Origin: a virus
Reading direction: 5' to 3' (one strand)
Virus record (IMG/VR): IMGVR_UViG_3300047510_002062
Span: 1 to 64,000 of that record
Length of the DNA: 64,000 nt
A model generated the notes under the pieces. That model was not told the DNA's origin and did not search any database. It saw only the letters and a program-made list of their open reading frames with translations. Shown piece after piece: positions 1 through 54,813 of this stretch. Each line of letters begins with the position of its first letter. The stretch's first letter is position 1. Position numbers and translations under genes: made by a program.

Positions 1-1647
1 GGTTCCTTGATTACCTTGTAATCCTTGAAGACCTTGAACACCTTGATCTCCTTGAAGTCCCTGAAGACCTTGGACTCCCTGAACACCCTGAACTCCTTGA
101 TCTCCTTGAAGTCCTTGAAGTCCTTGAAGTCCTTGGGTTCCCTGATTACCCTGCAATCCTTGAAGACCTTGGGTTCCCTGAACACCTTGATCTCCTTGGA
201 GGCCTTGGGTTCCTTGTTGTCCCTGAACACCTTGAACTCCTTGATTTCCTTGTAATCCTTGAAGACCTTGGGTTCCTTGATTGCCTTGCAATCCTTGTAA
301 TCCCTGAACACCCTGTACTCCTTGAGCACTTTGAACACCTTGATTTCCTTGAACACCTTGATTACCCTGCAATCCTTGTGTTCCTTGTGTTCCTTGGAAA
401 TTACTTAATACTCCTTGTGTTCCTTGTCTACCTTGAAGCCCTTGAGTTCCTTGTGTTCCTTGGAAATTACTTAATACTCCTTGAATTCCTTGCAATCCTT
501 GAGTTCCTTGGGCACTTTGAACACCTTGATTGCCTTGGACTCCTTGGTTACCCTGTAATCCCTGAAGACCTTGTACTCCTTGGTTACCTTGTAGTCCCTG
601 AAGACCTTGGACTCCTTGGTTACCTTGTAATCCTTGAAGACCTTGGACTCCTTGGTTACCTTGAAGACCTTGTAATCCTTGAACTCCTTGGTTACCCTGT
701 AATCCTTGAAGACCTTGTACTCCTTGATCTCCTTGAAGACCTTGTAATCCTTGAACTCCTTGGTTACCCTGTAATCCTTGAAGACCTTGGACACCCTGAA
801 CACCTTGATCTCCTTGAAGACCTTGTAATCCTTGAACTCCTTGGTTACCCTGTAATCCTTGAAGACCTTGGACACCCTGAACACCTTGATCTCCTTGAAG
901 ACCTTGTAATCCTTGAACTCCTTGGTTACCCTGTAATCCTTGAAGACCTTGGACACCCTGAACTCCTTGAGTTCCTTGGAAATTGCTTAAAGGTCCTTGG
1001 AGACCTTGAGTACCCTGTAAAGCAGTTCTCCAAGAAAGAGTTCCATCTCCATTTGAATAAAGAATATCATCTAAATTTCCACCAAATCCATCTTTATCGT
1101 ATACCGTCCCATCTAATTTAAGATCACCTGAAACATGTAATTGTGAGTCTGAATATACAATTGTAGTTCCTACACCAACAGGACCATCGATGTATGCTCC
1201 ACTATAAACTTGAAGTAATTGATCTGCAGTTCCAGTAGTTACTCCAGTCCCTACACCAATAGTTACAGTACCATCTACAAATGTCGTTATTCCAGCAACA
1301 TATAATGTTTCTGTTCTTAATCTTTGAATTGCTGCGTCATCTACAATTTGTCCACCGGTAATTTCTGTAGGACCAGCAAAAAAAGTTCTGGCAGTTACAA
1401 CTCCAGTAAAAAATCCGTCCCCATCAACAAATAATTCTGCTCCAAGTGTATTTGTTGTGGCAATTCCAACTTGATCTCTTACATAAAGACCACCAGAAGA
1501 TATATCTACTTCTTGATATTGTTGATCTGTATTTCCTATGGCAACTTTACCAGCATCAACCGCCAATACTGTTTCATTTTCTGTGTATGAAACAATACCA
1601 ATTTTAATGTTATTTTGACGATTGCTCTGATATCTTTTATTGGCCAT
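1..1647 (-). CDS. collagen-like tail fibre protein (Gly-X-Gln repeats), 3' end outside window
   Basis: The frame opens at ATG 1647-1645 (protein begins [13 protein letters not shown]) and stays open to base 1, so 549 codons are visible and the C-terminus is missing. Residues 1-210 form a non-repetitive head typical of cyanophage fibre proteins (short beta-strand segments such as [16 protein letters not shown]). From about residue 210 the protein is almost pure collagen-like triplets G-X-Q with X mostly L, V, N, T or I. These are broken by a recurrent LSNFQG element (three visible copies). The role is inferred: a trimeric shaft of a tail or whisker fibre acting at the host surface. It follows the 114-aa gene at 1650 by 2 bp and is the third member of a cassette also found at 7628-15159. 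Collagen-like proteins are known in tailed phages; the Gln-rich third position is what I see here. Confidence 0.85.
723..965 (-). repeat. 81-bp tandem repeat inside collagen-like gene
   Basis: The segment starting ttgatctccttgaagacc recurs at about 724, 804-805 and 885-886, giving a period of 81 bp (27 codons, nine G-X-Q triplets) in about three near-identical copies. The near identity at third codon positions suggests recent expansion by slippage or recombination. Confidence 0.8.
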
Positions 1648-1998: not shown

Positions 1999-4353
1999 TT
2001 AGTCTCCTCCTAATGCTAGAATAAATGGTGTTAAAGTTGCAAATAAACTCTTAGAATAAATATCACCACTAATGGTTCCCGCATTTTGATTAATTACAAT
2101 CCCATCTCCAATTTTGAAATTACCTGCTTGATCAGTGCTTGTAAATACAACTAAACCGCCATTACGAGAATCAGTTTCTTGTTCGGGAATTGGAACACCT
2201 CCATTTTTAGGAAGTGCATTATTAATATTTGGACCAGTACCAATATATTCAAGAGAATGACCAGATGCTAAAACTCTACTTTGCTTAAAAAATGGAACTT
2301 GTGTTCCAACGCCAACTATGTAAGGAAGATTTTCACTAATTGTTATAGTAGTAATTCCCGCTGGAGATACAGAAGTTGCTCTCGTTATAGAATAATATAC
2401 AGGAGTGAGTTCTACAAATACCACTGCAGTATTTATTCCACTTTGCGGAGCACTAACTGTGACTTTTGGAGGAATTCTATATCCTCTACCACTAGAAACT
2501 AATTCAATAGTATCAACAACACCACTTGAATTTATTTCTGCAACTGCTTGCCCAGTAATTCCCCAGGGAACTTCGGGACTTTCAAATGTCAATACTGGTG
2601 GTTGAGTATATCCAGTTCCTCCAGAACCAATAACTACATTTTTAATTTCATAATATAACTCATCAAAATAAACAACTTGACCATCAAAAGGTCTTACAAT
2701 ATTTAATTCAACTGTTCCTCCAGAAGTGTAATAGTGCTTAAATGGTGCTGGACCAACATGTGCAGAAAATACTGTACTTGCAAAAGAAACAGTAGCAACA
2801 CTCAGATCTTCTTCGATTAAAGATGTTGTGACGATACCAACTATGTTATCAATATAACTTTTAACATTTGAACACGAATTTACATTATTATTACTATTTG
2901 TATTTGGATCGGCAATTACATCAAAATTAGTATTAGTCAGCTGATTATTAATAGCAAGTTTCATGTATTCACCTGCTGTTTGGAAAGCAGTTACTGTTTC
3001 CGAAATCTGATTTTCAATACTTTCATCGAGTGTCCCATCATCATTAAAATAAAATTTAAGTGCATTAACTGTTGATTTTACTTTTAAATCTCTAACATCC
3101 TCAGATACATAATCAATAAAGTATCCAATATCTCTCTTACATTTTTCTTGATCTGGATCTGTAAAAGATGGATATTGTACTAATATTTCTGCATAAGCAG
3201 CATCAATAATTTCTTGTCGATTTGATTGAATTAAATTATATGCATCATAATATCTACCTGGAGCAACAATGAACGGTTCAAATACATATCCATAGTTTCC
3301 ACTTGGATACTGTAATTCAGTAACACCTCCATCAGAACTACAAGTGAATCCAAGACCAGAAATTTTTATACTAGATCCAATTTCAAATTGATGTGGAGTA
3401 TTAGTGTATGCAGTTAAAATACCAGTAGTGTGATCATAAATTGCATTGGTAACATTATAAGATGGTGTTGAAATATCAACTACAAAAGTATCCTCATTTA
3501 CCGATGATGATGCTTCTACGATTGTTCCTGTGAATTTATTGGGACCAACTCCATCCGCTATAAGAGCATAATTGCCAAAAGATGAGTTGGAGTTTGTTAG
3601 ATCACAAGCAGCACCAGAACCACAAAAAACTGCAGTATCATTACAAATTGTGAAAAGTGATACTAATTGAGAATAACCCTCATTGGTCATGGAAGCACCA
3701 ACACCATTGGGATTATATTGAGTATATGAGTCAAGAACCATTGATTTTAATGGACCCACTGCATTAAGACCATCAATTTTTAAACCAATAGTATCTGGAA
3801 CAAAATTTGTGCAATTTTGTATGTATGGAGATTGATCAAAATACCCAACAATTTCTGGATTGAATGCAAAAATTGCACCTCCAGGATTTGAAGGTCCAAT
3901 GAATGACATTTCGGTTACATAATTACCATTAGATACCCAAAATAAATCCCCGCTATTCGCACATTGAACTGATACTTCTCTTAAATTATCTCCAACAATA
4001 CTTGTTTGTTCTGGAAGTGCAATTGGATTATCTTCAACATATACTCCTGCACTAACTTTAATAACTGTTCCTTCCTTTGCAGCAGCAACTGCTCCTTTAA
4101 TAGTTGCCTTTGCATCCCCAAGTTTTTTGCCAGTATTATTATCGTTTCCGTCTTTAGTTACGTATAAAACATTTGTTACAGTTGCACCAGCACCAATCCT
4201 AGCAATGTCTGGACTAAACCCAATTCTTTCTCTACGAACATATAATTCCGCATCATTAGTATTCAGGGCTAACTCGCCTAATTGGAGTTGTCCTAAAGAT
4301 GGTTTACTTCCTGGTGTTGTAGATCGCTTGATGCGGATTATCGGTCTTGCCAT
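1999..4353 (-). CDS. virion structural protein, beta-helix/pectate-lyase-like fibre, 784 aa
   Basis: The N-terminus (MARPIIRIKRSTTPGSKPSL then GELALNTNDAELYV) is the short beta module often found at the start of phage receptor-binding proteins. Residues 60-200 contain VTKDGNDNNTG, AGVYVEDNPIALP and MSFIGP, the pattern of right-handed beta-helix proteins (pectate lyase-like). The C-terminal 60 residues contain STDQAGNFKIGDG and end PFILALGGD. The 1522-aa protein at 10591-15159 shares all these blocks (VTQNGDDSNSG, GVYVEENPIIL, STDQAGNFKIGDD, LIIALGR), so the two are paralogues. The last codons, GGA GGA GAC, also form the ribosome binding site for the gene at 1650. No catalytic residues can be assigned. 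It is most likely a fibre or baseplate-periphery protein of the virion. Confidence 0.8.
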   Translation of the reverse strand: MARPIIRIKRSTTPGSKPSLGQLQLGELALNTNDAELYVRRERIGFSPDIARIGAGATVTNVLYVTKDGNDNNTGKKLGDAKATIKGAVAAAKEGTVIKVSAGVYVEDNPIALPEQTSIVGDNLREVSVQCANSGDLFWVSNGNYVTEMSFIGPSNPGGAIFAFNPEIVGYFDQSPYIQNCTNFVPDTIGLKIDGLNAVGPLKSMVLDSYTQYNPNGVGASMTNEGYSQLVSLFTICNDTAVFCGSGAACDLTNSNSSFGNYALIADGVGPNKFTGTIVEASSSVNEDTFVVDISTPSYNVTNAIYDHTTGILTAYTNTPHQFEIGSSIKISGLGFTCSSDGGVTELQYPSGNYGYVFEPFIVAPGRYYDAYNLIQSNRQEIIDAAYAEILVQYPSFTDPDQEKCKRDIGYFIDYVSEDVRDLKVKSTVNALKFYFNDDGTLDESIENQISETVTAFQTAGEYMKLAINNQLTNTNFDVIADPNTNSNNNVNSCSNVKSYIDNIVGIVTTSLIEEDLSVATVSFASTVFSAHVGPAPFKHYYTSGGTVELNIVRPFDGQVVYFDELYYEIKNVVIGSGGTGYTQPPVLTFESPEVPWGITGQAVAEINSSGVVDTIELVSSGRGYRIPPKVTVSAPQSGINTAVVFVELTPVYYSITRATSVSPAGITTITISENLPYIVGVGTQVPFFKQSRVLASGHSLEYIGTGPNINNALPKNGGVPIPEQETDSRNGGLVVFTSTDQAGNFKIGDGIVINQNAGTISGDIYSKSLFATLTPFILALGGD

Positions 4354-47620: not shown

Positions 47621-50600
47621 TTAAAACGGTGAAACAATGCCATAAGTATCTTGAATGCGTTGCCTTTCAGTAACAGCACTAGGATTAGTGCAAAGTGGAT
47701 CAAACATAACTTCTTTCTGACCGGCTTTTTGCCCACCACCTCCAGAAGCATTTCCTCCAGATTTGATTGGTGGAAGTTTTACAATTCCACCTTTACCTTC
47801 AGAGGGTTTTTCGTATGGTTTGATTCTGTTACCTATAGTATTTAAAGTTTTTCCAAGTTTTGCTGGAGAAGAATTGCTATCTGTGGAACCAACTATACTA
47901 TCAAAGAATACTTTTCCAAGTCTATCTACACTATCCTTTGGAATTACATATTCTCCAGGTTGTAATGCTGTAAATTGCCTATCAGCAGTTCCTCCTGGAA
48001 TATCAACTCCAGAATTTTCCATTACTAATCCTTTAGTAAACAATGACGAGAAATTCATTCCTGTATTGAACCCTCTTAATCCATATGCTTCTCCAAGTCT
48101 ACCTTGACGTTCCAATGAATTGGATCTCATTCCACGAAGTTGGTTTAGCCTATCGTCAATGGATTCTTTTTTATTAATATTCAAATTAAGATTTGGATTA
48201 AATGCAAGTGATGAATTATTCTTTATTTTACTTGAATCGAAATTGGATTTTATACTTGGAATATTCAATCCAAGATTTACATTGTATGGATTTACTTTAT
48301 TTGAATCCGCTTCCTTTAATTTATTTTGATTTAAATTAATATTTGGATTAAATTCTATAGCAGTATTGGATTTGTTCGATAACTGTGAAAAATTAACTCC
48401 TGATCCAAATGCTCTTAGACCATATGCCTCCCCAAGTCTACCTTGACGTTCCAGTGAATTAGACCTCATTCCACGAAGTTGATTCAATGAATCATTGATA
48501 GATTCTTTTTTACTTGCATTTTTATTGTCATTTAAATTTATACTTGGATTAAATGCAACATTTGTGTCTATTGAACTTTTTGGTTTATTATTGAATAATG
48601 AGATCCAATCTATCTGAGAATTAAATAACTTGGATGGACCCTCTTCTTTCGCTTTAATTGATGCTTCTACTACTCGCTTCTCAACTTCCTGAGGTGACAA
48701 TCCCTCTAATCTTGCTCGTTCTCTTGCTGCTCTTGCTGCAGCATAAACATGAGGCATTGATGCGGCCGTTTTTGTTGGATCTAACGCAAATGAAGACTTT
48801 TTATTACTACCGGTCAAATTGTTTAAATTAAATGCAAGATTGGTATTATTCTTAGATTTATTCAAATCATAAGTTGTAGTATTATTTAATGGTTTTATTC
48901 CAACTCCTGTATTAACTGAACTACCAAATGATTTTTTTGAAATAGAAGAAAAATCTACTCCAGTCCCAAATCCTCTCAATCCATATGCTTCCCCAAGTCT
49001 ACCCTGACGTTCTAATGAATTAGCTCTCATTCCACGAAGTTCATTTAGTGTATCAGAAATTGAAGATTTTTTCTTAGGATTTAAATTAACATTTGGATTA
49101 AATGCAAAAGATGTATTATTTTGGATTTTACTTGAATCAAAATTAGATTTTATGCTTGGAATATTCAATCCAAGATTGACTGGTTTTTTAAACACATCAT
49201 TAGTCAATCCTTCTTTCACTGGAGATGAATTGCTATCTGTAGATCCAACAATATGATCAAAAAATCCCTTTCCAAGTCTATCTACACTATCCTTTGGAAT
49301 TACATATTCTCCAGGTTGTAATGCTGTCAGTTGCTTGTCAGCAGTGCCACCGGGAATATTCAATCCGGTATTCTCTTTTATAAGTCCACTTGGGAAAAAT
49401 GAAGTCGATCTGGTTCCAATCTTTCTTGAAGTTTCTGTGACTCTTGGTCTTTTTGGTTTTCTTCCAAATAAATTAGAAAGAGGAGAAAATAAATTTCTTG
49501 CTCTTCCTCCTAATGAACGCATACCTTCACCAAGATTTCTGAATGGTTCGTTGAAATCTACATTTCTCTCTTGCAATGTTGGTATATTTACATCAATTCC
49601 GTATCTATCCTTAAGATATCTATCTGGATTTTGAATATTTAATCTCCCTCCGCCAAAATTTACTAAACCACCATCTTGCAATCCTTGTACTCCGGTTTTT
49701 GATGAGAATTCTCCTTCATATTTTTGCTCTGCATATTTTTTTAAGGAAGGTATGGAAACATCAATGTCACCAGGATGAGATATTGGTTTTACATCGATTA
49801 AACTTCCGGCTAACTTAAGTTGTTTAGATTTTGTTCTTCCACTAGTGGCAGCAGATGCTGGTTGAGAAATCAAATTCAATAATCCATTAAATGCATTAGA
49901 TGCAAATTTTTTAGCACCCTTTACAAGTCCCCCGCCCTGCTTTCCAATCCATCCTCTAGGATCAATCGCCCACCTTTTGGGAGAAGGTGGTGCTGGTTTT
50001 GATCCTGCAGGTCTTGATGCTGGTTTTGATCCTGCGGATGCTGGAGGAGCAAAGAAATTTCCAATAGATGACATTGCCCTTGAGGCAATATTCATAATTG
50101 GATTTCCCTGTGCTGGTTTTGATGTTGGTTTTGGTGCTGCTGGACCAAACCCAGTTCCATAATTTACTCCACCAGATAATCCCTGGATTCTTCTTAAATT
50201 ATCCTGAGTTTCTGCAAGATGATTATATCCACCATTGATATTGTATGTAAATGCCTCACTATCACCTCGCTTTGCCATATCAGCAAAACTTACACCAAAT
50301 GTTTTCTCTCTATCTTCAAGATAATATATTGTTGAAAGTGCTTGAACTCTAGGATCAGTTGCTAAAAGATCTGGATTTTTTACTACATCTATTCCCTTAT
50401 ATCCATTTTTTGCCAACCATTTATTCAATCCCTCATAATGAGTTCTTCCGGTTAATTGAATTGCTCCCCTTCCACGGAAATTATATCCATCATCAAATCC
50501 TTTATTACCTAAATCTTTTCTATTTCCATAACCTTCTCCAAAATAATAATATCCCTCCTTCCCCTTCGGATCTCTTGAATCCGAATTATACATTTCTTTC

Positions 50601-52987
50601 GCTCTACTAAAGTTTTGAGATTCCACAAGTAACCTTGCGGTCAATTGATCCATGAATTTCTTATCACCCCATCCTTTCTCTTTAAATCTTCCAGTTTGAA
50701 GCATTCTATAAAGAAGTGGAATAGACTTTGCAAGTGTTGGATCAAATTTATGATTTGGATCTCCTGATATTTTTCTTCCAAGATTTAATACAGGAGTACC
50801 TCCAGCAATTCCACCATTGGAGAATCCATGAATTATTCCACCATTAGAAAATCCTGGGAGACTTTTTCCTCCTTTTGTTTTTATGTTATCGCTATCAACC
50901 TTTTGTGGTTTTCTTTTTGAAAGCCATGCTGGAATATTAATTCCAAATTTATTGTATATACTCTGCTGAACATCTGGAGATAAAATTGCCTCTCCTCTTT
51001 TAACAGCAATTGTAGTTGGACTTCCTATATTTGAAGATGATCCACTTAATGCCCCAGTTACTCCTCCAGTTAATGCACCAATTGGACCTCCAAGTGCCCC
51101 ACCAACACCCACACCAGACATTGCCTTCATGAGAAGACTTTGATCTTTTTCAGTTAATATGGCATCACCTATGTTCGCCTTTATTAACGTATCATCCTTT
51201 CCTGCACCAGTGATTGGTACACCATCTCCTGAAGATATTCTATCAACTACTCCACCAATATTGAATGAACTAGTTTTTGAAGCATCTTTTGATTGCTTTT
51301 CAACTTCTGGTCCTGTTTTTTGTAGGATTAAATTTGCTAATCCAGGAAGACCACCCATTTGAATGAACTTTGGATCTTTATCAAGACCACTCGTTTCAAC
51401 TTCTCTAGTAGCTTGATTAAACTGATCCTTTACTTTAGAATCTTTAAGTAATCCAGATCCTAATATGGATCCAATACCACCCAATCCACCCAAAGATGCC
51501 GCTATTGGCAATGAACTTAAATTGGAAGAAATGTCTCCAGCAGTTTCTAATCCCCTTTTTCCAAGAGAAAGTCCCAAACCAATAGGACTATATTTCAATG
51601 CATTGAGTGCTAACCCACCTATACCCCTAAAAGCACCACCAGCAGTTTTTGATATTCCCGAAGATGCAAATTCTGTAGTTTTTTGTAAATTTTGAAATCC
51701 CTGTTTTCCAACCTTTAGTGCTAATCCTAACGGAGAATACTCAAGAGTTTTTCCAACACCTTCTTTTGCTGCATCAAAAACTCCAGGAGTAATTTTACCA
51801 AGATTTTCAGCACCAAATTTTCCGGCTTTGAACATCAATCCCAAAGGACTGTATTCAAATGCTTTTCCTATAGAACCAGCTATTCCACCTTTTTCAAATT
51901 TTTCAGTTGGTTCTGAAGGAAGGTTTGGTAATTCTGTGTTTGGTGGTGCCTCTGTGTCCCCCGAAGATGACTTTTCTCCAGGCATTAAAGATTTACCGAC
52001 TGCTACTGCTCCTAGTCCCAATCCAGCAAGGGCAGCTATTTTTCCTTTGGCACCCAGTTTACCTATGACGGGAATTAATTTTTTAGCAATAACAACTGCC
52101 ATTTTGGCAGTCCATACCCCCAACTTTACAGTAAATCTAGTTATAAATCTACCAATCGATGTACCAAAAGCAAGCCAAGACCCAACCAACAAAACCCAAT
52201 GATCACGAAGAAACATTATAATGTCTACGACTTTCTTTTGATTATTTGGATCACTGAACCATTCGCTGAACATTTTAAATGCTTTAGCAGCAAACATCCA
52301 GAAAAGAAAGTTTTTAATTCGTTGGAATAGTTGTTGTAATGGAGATAATGCTTTCTCTGCTGCTTTTATTATTATTGGCGTATCTTTCTTTTCAGAAGAA
52401 ACACTTTCCATTTCATCTTCTTTAGATTCCGCTCTAGATCTTTCTGAAGATCTTCTAGAACTGTCGGCGGATTTTCTTTGAAATGCTAGTTGATTTTCTA
52501 GTGTCGTTAAAATGGATCCTACAGTTTTGTCGATATTTTTTAAGATCGACAATAGAGAATCCGACTTTGGTTTTGGTTCCTCTGTTTTTGTTTGATCTTC
52601 TACTGTAGTCTTTGAGGTTTTATAAGTTCCCGTTCCTACAAGACTTTTTACTGGCTTAACATCATTATTACTTTTTCTTTTATTATTGTCAACAAACTTA
52701 GATATATTTGTTACTTTAGTGGGATCTATTGGATCCCTTTTAACTTTCTTTTTCTTTTTAGAAGTTTTAAAAACAGTTTCTTTTTTTACCCCTTTTACTC
52801 TCTTAAGTTCTTCTGTTATTCTTTGCGTATCATCAGAAGAATACTTTGATTCGTTCATTCTAGCAGCAACTGCTGCTTCTCTTAATGCTCTAAAATAATC
52901 TTCCCAAGACAATTCGTAATCATCTTGAAGACCCAACAAGTCAATAATATTCTGTTCAATTACTTGACTTGTTGGGTTAGAATCCAT
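47621..52987 (-). CDS. tape-measure-position tail protein with GH19-like domain, 1788 aa
   Basis: It directly follows the gp26/gp51-like pair, where a tape measure gene is expected. Residues 130-215 are a Ser/Lys-rich coiled region. 222-340 are hydrophobic (NFLFWMFAAKAFKMFSEWFS). 375-480 hold three EYSPLGL..K.GK units. 750-940 is a GH19-type glycosidase domain (RGRGAIQLTGRTHYEGLNKW, NPDLLATDPRVQALS). The C-terminal third has three copies of LRGMRSNSLERQGRLGEAYG and two of TALQPGEYVIPKDSVDRLGK. The GEYVIPKD motif is typical of phage tape-measure ends. It is partly paralogous to the 1971-aa protein. It overlaps the upstream 61-aa gene by 11 bp. Confidence 0.75.
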   Translation of the reverse strand: MDSNPTSQVIEQNIIDLLGLQDDYELSWEDYFRALREAAVAARMNESKYSSDDTQRITEELKRVKGVKKETVFKTSKKKKKVKRDPIDPTKVTNISKFVDNNKRKSNNDVKPVKSLVGTGTYKTSKTTVEDQTKTEEPKPKSDSLLSILKNIDKTVGSILTTLENQLAFQRKSADSSRRSSERSRAESKEDEMESVSSEKKDTPIIIKAAEKALSPLQQLFQRIKNFLFWMFAAKAFKMFSEWFSDPNNQKKVVDIIMFLRDHWVLLVGSWLAFGTSIGRFITRFTVKLGVWTAKMAVVIAKKLIPVIGKLGAKGKIAALAGLGLGAVAVGKSLMPGEKSSSGDTEAPPNTELPNLPSEPTEKFEKGGIAGSIGKAFEYSPLGLMFKAGKFGAENLGKITPGVFDAAKEGVGKTLEYSPLGLALKVGKQGFQNLQKTTEFASSGISKTAGGAFRGIGGLALNALKYSPIGLGLSLGKRGLETAGDISSNLSSLPIAASLGGLGGIGSILGSGLLKDSKVKDQFNQATREVETSGLDKDPKFIQMGGLPGLANLILQKTGPEVEKQSKDASKTSSFNIGGVVDRISSGDGVPITGAGKDDTLIKANIGDAILTEKDQSLLMKAMSGVGVGGALGGPIGALTGGVTGALSGSSSNIGSPTTIAVKRGEAILSPDVQQSIYNKFGINIPAWLSKRKPQKVDSDNIKTKGGKSLPGFSNGGIIHGFSNGGIAGGTPVLNLGRKISGDPNHKFDPTLAKSIPLLYRMLQTGRFKEKGWGDKKFMDQLTARLLVESQNFSRAKEMYNSDSRDPKGKEGYYYFGEGYGNRKDLGNKGFDDGYNFRGRGAIQLTGRTHYEGLNKWLAKNGYKGIDVVKNPDLLATDPRVQALSTIYYLEDREKTFGVSFADMAKRGDSEAFTYNINGGYNHLAETQDNLRRIQGLSGGVNYGTGFGPAAPKPTSKPAQGNPIMNIASRAMSSIGNFFAPPASAGSKPASRPAGSKPAPPSPKRWAIDPRGWIGKQGGGLVKGAKKFASNAFNGLLNLISQPASAATSGRTKSKQLKLAGSLIDVKPISHPGDIDVSIPSLKKYAEQKYEGEFSSKTGVQGLQDGGLVNFGGGRLNIQNPDRYLKDRYGIDVNIPTLQERNVDFNEPFRNLGEGMRSLGGRARNLFSPLSNLFGRKPKRPRVTETSRKIGTRSTSFFPSGLIKENTGLNIPGGTADKQLTALQPGEYVIPKDSVDRLGKGFFDHIVGSTDSNSSPVKEGLTNDVFKKPVNLGLNIPSIKSNFDSSKIQNNTSFAFNPNVNLNPKKKSSISDTLNELRGMRANSLERQGRLGEAYGLRGFGTGVDFSSISKKSFGSSVNTGVGIKPLNNTTTYDLNKSKNNTNLAFNLNNLTGSNKKSSFALDPTKTAASMPHVYAAARAARERARLEGLSPQEVEKRVVEASIKAKEEGPSKLFNSQIDWISLFNNKPKSSIDTNVAFNPSINLNDNKNASKKESINDSLNQLRGMRSNSLERQGRLGEAYGLRAFGSGVNFSQLSNKSNTAIEFNPNINLNQNKLKEADSNKVNPYNVNLGLNIPSIKSNFDSSKIKNNSSLAFNPNLNLNINKKESIDDRLNQLRGMRSNSLERQGRLGEAYGLRGFNTGMNFSSLFTKGLVMENSGVDIPGGTADRQFTALQPGEYVIPKDSVDRLGKVFFDSIVGSTDSNSSPAKLGKTLNTIGNRIKPYEKPSEGKGGIVKLPPIKSGGNASGGGGQKAGQKEVMFDPLCTNPSAVTERQRIQDTYGIVSPF
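47860..49400 (-). repeat. internal repeats in the 1788-aa gene
   Basis: Three copies encoding LRGMR.NSLERQGRLGEAYG lie near 48060-48160, 48395-48500 and 48965-49070. Two copies of the TALQPGEYVIPKDSVDRLGK block lie near 47870-48000 and 49230-49380. The nucleotide sequences are nearly identical, which points to recent duplication within the gene. Confidence 0.8.
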
Positions 52988-53162
52988 TTTTACTTGCTGC
53001 TTTACGTTTTAGTTCTTCATCTTCTAAGTGCTGTTCTAATAACATCACGTAAATATCCCTTTCCCAAGGCATCATATTTTCAATTTCTGTCAATGAATAT
53101 TTATGGAACTGCATTAAAGCAAAATTTAATCGGAAATAATTTTCCATGTCCATGTGGGACAT
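52977..53162 (-). CDS. 51: gp51-like tail assembly protein, 61 aa, probably also made as -1 frameshift fusion
   Basis: Begins MSHMDMENYFRLNFALMQFH, continues KYSLTEIENMMPWERDIYVM, and ends LKRKAASKNGF. It is all helical with a central MPWERDIYV, the kind of motif seen in C-terminal parts of tail assembly chaperones. Its ATG lies 2 nt after the TAG of the gp26-like gene, and its frame is -1 to that gene. The upstream slippery site would fuse it to gp26 as a protein of about 304 aa. Independent start at M1, or at M4 behind AGGA, is possible too. The gp51 name comes from gene order in T4-like phages and is tentative. Confidence 0.6.
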   Translation of the reverse strand: MSHMDMENYFRLNFALMQFHKYSLTEIENMMPWERDIYVMLLEQHLEDEELKRKAASKNGF

Positions 53163-53191
53163 TCCTATCCGAAAAAAGAAGAAAGACCTTC
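53145..53191 (-). promoter_or_regulatory. candidate programmed -1 frameshift signal
   Basis: Minus strand, in order: GAAGG (53191-53187, Shine-Dalgarno-like), 9 nt, slippery T TTT TTC (53177-53171) in the gp26 frame, 8 nt including the TAG stop, then a perfect hairpin ATGTCC-cacat-GGACAT (53162-53146). A -1 slip reads CGG ATA GGA ATG and enters the 61-aa frame without a stop. Confidence 0.65.
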
Positions 53192-53890
53192 AAGTACTAC
53201 TTCAGATTCTACACCAGTATTTGGATTCTTGATTTTCATTGTATGTGCAAGTTTTGGCATTGTTTCAAAGAATTTTTCAATTTGCTTAAATTGAATTGAA
53301 TTCATTTGATCTAGAAAATCTACCAATTCTTTTTTAGATACATCAGAAGAATCCCACACTTCCTCCTCATTGTAAATTTTATCGATACAAGAAGCGATTA
53401 GTTCAAATGATTGATCTACATTGGCACTATCTTGATTAATGTCAAAATTATTTTTAATGAATTGCTCCAATGATGGATACTTCATTTCCATCATTAAATG
53501 ATCATCTAATTTAATTTTGTTGTCATGGGCATCATCAACTAAAACATTAATATCATTAATTGCGATTGAAACTGGAACTTCAGTTATTCCATCATCGGGA
53601 CAAATGATATTAATATCAACAACTTCACCAACAGACTTTGCTCTAATGTTTAAGAACAAATACTCAATGTCAAAGGTTGGTAAATTTTCTACTTTCATAT
53701 TTTTGGGACTTTCAATACAATTCTTAATTACCTGTTTTACTGCATTGGTAATTTCTTTTGTATCTTCAGTCTCCATTGCTAAAACTAAAAGTTTCTCTTC
53801 CTTCACCAAAAACGGTCTGTACTTAATTTTCTGTTTTGTTGATGGAAGAATTAATTCATAATGGGGTGTTGAAATTTTAGGTAATGGCAT
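53165..53890 (-). CDS. 26: gp26-like baseplate hub/assembly protein, 241 aa
   Basis: Begins MPLPKISTPHYELILPSTKQ, followed by KIKYRPFLVKEEKLLVLAME. This is the conserved start of the T4_baseplate (gp26) family. It is 241 aa against about 208 in T4. The C-terminal part (DFLDQMNSIQFKQIEKFFET) is helical and ends GLSSFFG at a slippery sequence. A perfect late promoter lies 26 bp upstream. It precedes the 61-aa gene and the tape-measure-position protein. That order matches chaperone-then-tape-measure in other tailed phages and supports a chaperone role. Confidence 0.85.
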   Translation of the reverse strand: MPLPKISTPHYELILPSTKQKIKYRPFLVKEEKLLVLAMETEDTKEITNAVKQVIKNCIESPKNMKVENLPTFDIEYLFLNIRAKSVGEVVDINIICPDDGITEVPVSIAINDINVLVDDAHDNKIKLDDHLMMEMKYPSLEQFIKNNFDINQDSANVDQSFELIASCIDKIYNEEEVWDSSDVSKKELVDFLDQMNSIQFKQIEKFFETMPKLAHTMKIKNPNTGVESEVVLEGLSSFFG

Positions 53891-53940: not shown

Positions 53941-54813
53941 TTATCTAGTCGTTCCACTTAAAAATGGTACATTGGAAAGAGACGGATTAATATTGTCTTT
54001 AAATTTCTTAAAGGAATCTCCAAAATTTTCTCCTTCCGATCCAGCAAAAAAGTTAAATGCAGATAATGGATCATTGTATATATTGTTTGATTTTAATGCA
54101 CCAAAGGGACCAAAATATTTTCTCTCCGCTATGTACCTAGTATATGCGAAAGAAACTGTACATTTTAAAACCTGAGCTTGATCATAAGAAACTGGCATCG
54201 CAGATATTGCGAGAGGATATGCCTGACAAAATTTATATTCAATATAAGTGCCCATTGATCCAACGTAATGTGTTTTATTTCCGGGTTCAAATTTATTAAT
54301 GTATATGTCAGTTTGATAATATTTTGGAAATGCTACTCGGTAAAAATAGTTTCTTGCATCCGCCCCTGGTCTATCTTTAACTGGATCTCTAGATTCTTGA
54401 ACTACGCTATTGATCCAATTTTCAAAAAATTGAAGTATCACATGACTTTTTCCACCGTCAGCACCAAAATCATCTACATAAAAACTAAAGTCTGCCCTAT
54501 CTTCATATATTTTTCTGTAGGCATGTCTTTCAGTAACACCAGTAAAATCATCTTTAATTTCATTAGTCGCTAACTGTGTTCCAGGAAGACTTGCTTCATG
54601 GCACATATACATCAAATTTTCTTCTAATCTGTCTCCCTTATAATCAACTTTACGAAGACCCCTTTGGGCGGCAATCCATTCTCTAGATTTTTGACTTGGA
54701 TAAAACCAACACTGAAAATGGGAAGTGCGAGATACCTTACCAAGTATATTTCTTACAGCACGATGTAGATTACCAGTTTCGTGTCTTGGTGCTGGTGCTC
54801 CGTTATTTGCCAT
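53941..54813 (-). CDS. 54: gp54-like baseplate-tail tube initiator, 290 aa
   Basis: Length (T4 gp54 is 320 aa) and motifs fit: RTSHFQCWFYPSQKSREWIA in the N-terminal part, RADFSFYVDDFGADGGKSHV in the middle, and the tube-type strand PVSYDQAQVLKCTVSFAYTR near 235-255. gp54 sits on the dome of the baseplate and nucleates tube polymerisation together with gp48. The gp48 gene is only 525 bp away on the other strand. gp54 is transcribed divergently from gp4. I see no late promoter with proper spacing for it; the palindromic TATTTATAAATG overlaps its start. Confidence 0.75.
   Translation of the reverse strand: MANNGAPAPRHETGNLHRAVRNILGKVSRTSHFQCWFYPSQKSREWIAAQRGLRKVDYKGDRLEENLMYMCHEASLPGTQLATNEIKDDFTGVTERHAYRKIYEDRADFSFYVDDFGADGGKSHVILQFFENWINSVVQESRDPVKDRPGADARNYFYRVAFPKYYQTDIYINKFEPGNKTHYVGSMGTYIEYKFCQAYPLAISAMPVSYDQAQVLKCTVSFAYTRYIAERKYFGPFGALKSNNIYNDPLSAFNFFAGSEGENFGDSFKKFKDNINPSLSNVPFLSGTTR

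Follow-up and report, generated by a model that had tools for sequence, protein, structure and literature searches.

A predicted programmed -1 frameshift joins the gp26-like and gp51-like reading frames in a probable tail assembly chaperone gene of a T4-like cyanophage

The window analysed here is a 64,000-nucleotide stretch of DNA from a virus of the T4-like cyanophage type (positions 1 to 64,000 of the 67.7 kb IMG/VR record IMGVR_UViG_3300047510_002062), and the element under study is the junction, on its minus strand, between a gp26-like gene and a gp51-like open reading frame (ORF). The gp26-like gene ends in TCT TCT TTT TTC GGA TAG, which includes the candidate slippery heptamer T TTT TTC. 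The heptamer is flanked by a Shine-Dalgarno (SD)-like GAAGG and a hairpin, and no stop interrupts the -1 frame where the zero frame ends (Table 1). A -1 slip would give a fusion of 304 aa, as computed from the window sequence, in which the portion read after the heptamer is the predicted C-terminal domain (TAC-C) of a long tail assembly chaperone (TAC). The heptamer, stop, GAAGG, hairpin, distances and 304-aa fusion described in the first-pass annotation of this DNA all agree to the base with the window sequence.

Table 1. Features of the gp26-gp51 junction and its neighbouring genes, in window coordinates
Feature	Position	Strand	Remarks
gp26-like gene	53165..53890	-	241 aa; very probably a short tail assembly chaperone (TAC-N)
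Slippery heptamer T TTT TTC (predicted)	53171..53177	-	In frame TCT TTT TTC
Zero-frame TAG stop	53165..53167	-	Single codon (GGA) between heptamer and stop
GAAGG, SD-like	53187..53191	-	9 nt 5' of heptamer
Hairpin ATGTCC-CACAT-GGACAT	53146..53162	-	6 bp; 8 nt 3' of heptamer; likely stimulator
-1 frame open stretch	52977..53189	-	Stop at 52977; phrog_634 E=8.7e-27
ATG-initiated gp51-like ORF	52977..53162	-	61 aa; in -1 frame relative to gp26-like gene
Tail tube protein gene	53941..54813	-	290 aa; directly upstream of gp26-like gene; PF23849 E=7.7e-15, phrog_45 E=5.6e-29
ORF in tape-measure position	47621..52987	-	1788 aa; 11-nt overlap with gp51-like ORF; phrog_35029 match

Widened homologue searches yielded 263 distinct junctions, 250 of which carry an in-phase T TTT TTN; the remaining 13 belong to Ackermannviridae-like phages and T4. 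The closest IMG/VR loci have [T] TTT TTC followed by one codon and a stop in 80/80 cases, with a constant relative frame of the gp51-like part. Elsewhere in the same genes an in-phase T TTT TT occurs only 18 times per 52,590 other codon positions. The 229 distinct heptamer-anchored junctions were taken further, and their heptamers, which follow the X XXY YYZ pattern in the zero-frame phase, are U6C in 213, U6U in nine and U6A in seven. The stop lies 0, 1, 2, 3 or 8 codons past the heptamer, with heptamer and -1 frame kept throughout. In four of the 250 the in-phase heptamer lies further from a displaced stop. At L303, L323, L337 and L277 the zero-frame stop is far downstream and the overlap is longer, again with heptamer and -1 frame kept; in three of them the displaced stop is 31 nt from the heptamer start.

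Codon usage was also constrained at this site. Among 273 gp26 genes the first phenylalanine codon is always TTT, and TTC encodes the second in 256 of 266 cases; replacements of phenylalanine by leucine use TTA, which keeps U UUU UUA. The codon preceding the Phe-Phe pair ends in T in all 273 genes (173 expected), although the amino acid varies (AGT, TCT, AAT, GAT, GCT, ACT, GGT and CAT). At other conserved phenylalanine columns of the gene the share of the major codon ranges from 52% to 94%. The fixed synonymous codons at the slip site indicate that bases are conserved there, and not residues alone. The first-pass annotation had predicted a programmed -1 frameshift and proposed an alignment of the junction across T4-like cyanophages as a check; this alignment supports the prediction, with heptamer and -1 offset conserved across hundreds of junctions.

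Past the stop, the -1 frame is conserved, open and coding. In 229/229 junctions it continues for 59-75 codons from the heptamer, whereas a run of at least 50 codons follows just 0.5% of arbitrarily chosen -1 starting points within gp26. An ATG is present in this frame between the heptamer and the conserved core in 154 of the 229 junctions; a further 21 have GTG or TTG as their only start candidates, and in 52 the open stretch contains none of ATG, GTG and TTG before the core is reached. A stand-alone gp51 could not start normally in these 52, so that only a slip could make the gp51 part. The start-less isolates include LPCS28 (L092) and S-SSM4 (L088), whose predicted fusion would carry SFFRVALLHTNL across the junction. 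Public records commonly annotate gp51 as a separate gene, several leave it out, and those of S-SSM4, ACG-2014d and S-WAM2 have no gene annotated at the gp51 part.

The region downstream of the heptamer was compared with a null obtained by synonymous resampling of the -1-frame codons, with two control windows further downstream. In the first 36 nt past the slip codon the mean minimum free energy (MFE) of the 229 junctions was -7.48 kcal/mol, versus -3.65 kcal/mol under the null, and the next two windows downstream showed no MFE excess over it. The 5-bp stem of the window's group shows 84.9% pairing in the closest loci and 73.8% overall, values that fall at every slid register; register sliding and the control windows are the only controls for kinship among the junctions. 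Its pairs covary (GGTCC/GGACC, GATCC/GGATC and GGTTC/GAACC), and the Prochlorococcus P-HM1 group has a GCCCTC/GAGGGC stem at a similar place. These comparisons indicate that the downstream structure is under selection, and it would probably act as a stimulator. A plain count of stems of at least 5 bp did not separate the data from the null (157/229 versus 0.66), and MFE against synonymous resampling was therefore used instead. GAAGG is present but was not retained as an independent conserved element (96.5% observed versus 94.9% under synonymous resampling), since the Glu-Gly codons are conserved and largely force this motif, making it inseparable from coding.

The gp26-like protein matches PF12322 T4_baseplate (E=6.6e-75) and phrog_150 (E=4.1e-81). 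The gp51 proteins of T4 and Aeromonas phage 25 are encoded in one frame and consist of PF12322 plus a phrog_634-matching C-terminus that aligns with the 61-aa protein of the window, suggesting that the two T4 genes encode the forms that one gene is predicted to make here. Thus gp26 is very probably the short chaperone (TAC-N) and the gp26-51 fusion the long one (TAC-NC), a short and a long form with a common N-terminal domain, as is characteristic of TACs. The order of genes (tail tube, TAC-N, TAC-C and the ORF in tape-measure position) fits a tail assembly chaperone locus; the last of these probably encodes the tape measure, judging from its position, length and profile match. This ORF also contains a GH19 chitinase/endolysin-like stretch at residues ~784-934 (phrog_181 E=5.7e-20).

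A model of gp26 was predicted with a local confidence score (pLDDT) of 86.6. Its close viral matches were other gp26 proteins, and sequence searches found no relative with a solved structure. Kinship of T4 gp28 with the gp26 family was considered from a match of T4 gp26 to phrog_1140 (E 9e-4) and rejected, as profile comparison and Pfam did not reproduce it; the T4 (L081) regions in this weak gp26/gp28-family match are 6-539 (-) and 2459-3085 (+).

Sequence conservation, frame, the open -1 frame, start loss, hairpin covariation, gene order and homology to T4 gp26/gp51 form the basis for regarding it as highly probable that this locus encodes tail assembly chaperones and uses programmed -1 ribosomal frameshifting. 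The majority of ribosomes would terminate at TAG and release gp26 (TAC-N). In a minority, aided by the hairpin that follows, tRNA-Phe would leave TTT and TTC and re-pair one base back on TTT TTT, and these ribosomes would continue in the -1 frame through the gp51-like domain to give the long TAC-NC. On the lambda gpG/gpGT model, the short form could coat the tape-measure protein, whose gene follows, and the long form could recruit the tail tube protein from the gene directly before. Slipping itself, its efficiency and the chaperone role are inferred.

Some observations weigh against this interpretation. An ATG lies 2 nt past the TAG (TAG GA ATG), which would also allow a separate 61-aa protein. 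The window hairpin, with a fold of -6.8 kcal/mol, is unexceptional taken singly (z = -0.69), and its support comes from the comparison. The top-probability PDB match of the gp26 model, the HK97 TAC 2ob9, speaks in itself for a chaperone, but the match is weak (probability 0.87, E 0.65), suggestive and not statistically significant. Finally, Ackermannviridae-like phages keep the -1 offset and have [ACG]TT TT[CT] instead of the heptamer.

The TAG GA ATG spacing could point to translational coupling, in which ribosomes terminate at TAG and begin again from the nearby ATG to make a separate gp51-like protein, an option that the first-pass annotation had kept as its alternative. The frequent ATG between heptamer and core, and the usual annotation of gp51 as its own gene, would agree with it. 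However, coupling does not hold in general, as 52 junctions lack any start codon for the second part and a further 21 have GTG or TTG only; moreover, it leaves unexplained why the heptamer is conserved, why a T-ending codon precedes it and why the stop can move, and the gp26-like domain is itself part of T4 gp51. Coupling was thus judged very unlikely. Even less probable is transcriptional slippage on the six-T run, which would create a mixed mRNA pool, part of it in an altered frame: it needs neither a fixed phase nor a hairpin, yet the T TTT TTN phase is kept and selection acts on a hairpin placed at ribosomal spacing, and runs that slip well in transcription are usually longer than six. That two independent adjacent genes carry heptamer and frame as accidents of protein conservation is scarcely credible, for although Phe-Phe itself is conserved, the choice among synonymous codons is more fixed than expected and the open -1 frame persists where starts are absent.

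The exceptions among the relatives deserve separate consideration, since the first-pass annotation had named relatives that lack the heptamer and retain both proteins as evidence against frameshifting. Such relatives exist in a narrow sense, namely T4, whose gene 51 already specifies the fused protein, and the Ackermannviridae-like phages CBA120, 3M, EspM4VN, Ds16CZ, YX22, Bue1, VP-1, Vibrio K357 and K452 (ends of gp26-like genes at loci L086, L095, L087, L350-L354 and L356); they do not undermine frameshifting in the window's clade. Several of the Ackermannviridae-like phages have an overlapping ATG, and Kuttervirus CBA120 and Miltonvirus 3M have no ATG or other start codon near the junction. 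A tentative scheme, which we advance with less than even confidence as a whole, is that the long PF12322 form is made in three ways: by a U6N slip with a covarying hairpin in the window's clade and several other T4-like groups, by a reduced NTT TTY slip in the Ackermannviridae-like phages, a site at which good re-pairing would be limited to the P-site tRNA, and from separate genes in T4. If true, NTT TTY would represent an unusual kind of frameshift signal, of which we know of no description.

In Aeromonas phage Ah1 (L357, 1426-2372), which we take to be a relative of Aeh1, the gp51 part follows GAT TTT TTC GAC TGA as a -1 extension of gp26 that has been left unannotated. Sullivan et al. 2010 (PMC3037559) called gp51 missing in Aeh1 and reported that the first ~200 residues are absent from cyanophage gp51, leaving ~20% of T4 gp51. 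Cyanophage gp51 would look truncated, and Aeh1 gp51 missing, because gp26 supplies the N-terminus through the frameshift.

Frameshifting is reportedly conserved in several T4-like groups, and T4 is said to use genes 26 and 51. The first-pass annotation knew of no description for T4-type gp26/gp51, which needs correction: Vladimirov, Gautam & Davidson 2022 (Virology 566:9-15; pmid 34826709) identified the TACs of T4-like phages. PMC12846349 cites this work for slippery poly-T sites in the TAC-N genes of T4-like phages, and PMC10885494 cites it for the occurrence of the short and the long form as separate genes in some of them. These T4-like TACs are of the same protein family (gp26/gp51) as the window's. 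The interpretation as a frameshifted T4-like chaperone is thus correct, as an instance of a kind known before, and what is added here is the loss of start codons, the covarying hairpin, the U6A and U6U variants and the Ackermannviridae exception.

The locus resembles lambda gpG/gpGT in having the tail tube gene before and the putative tape measure gene after it, and differs in that lambda uses another slippery heptamer. T4 has the same two forms, PF12322 alone (gp26) and PF12322 plus the C-terminal domain (gp51), but its genes 26 and 51 are separate, divergently oriented and without a frameshift. Atkins et al. 2016 (PMC5009743) described lambda G-GT frameshifting as widely conserved in long-tailed phages, T4 excepted, and T4 gp51 is needed yet absent from the particle (T4 review PMC3004832). 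The TACs of Vandenendeviridae and Andersonviridae (PMC12846349) are likewise myovirus chaperones whose genes combine a conserved poly-T slippery site with a -1 frame that stays open for >200 bp, but they belong to another phage group and use the motif GTTTTT.
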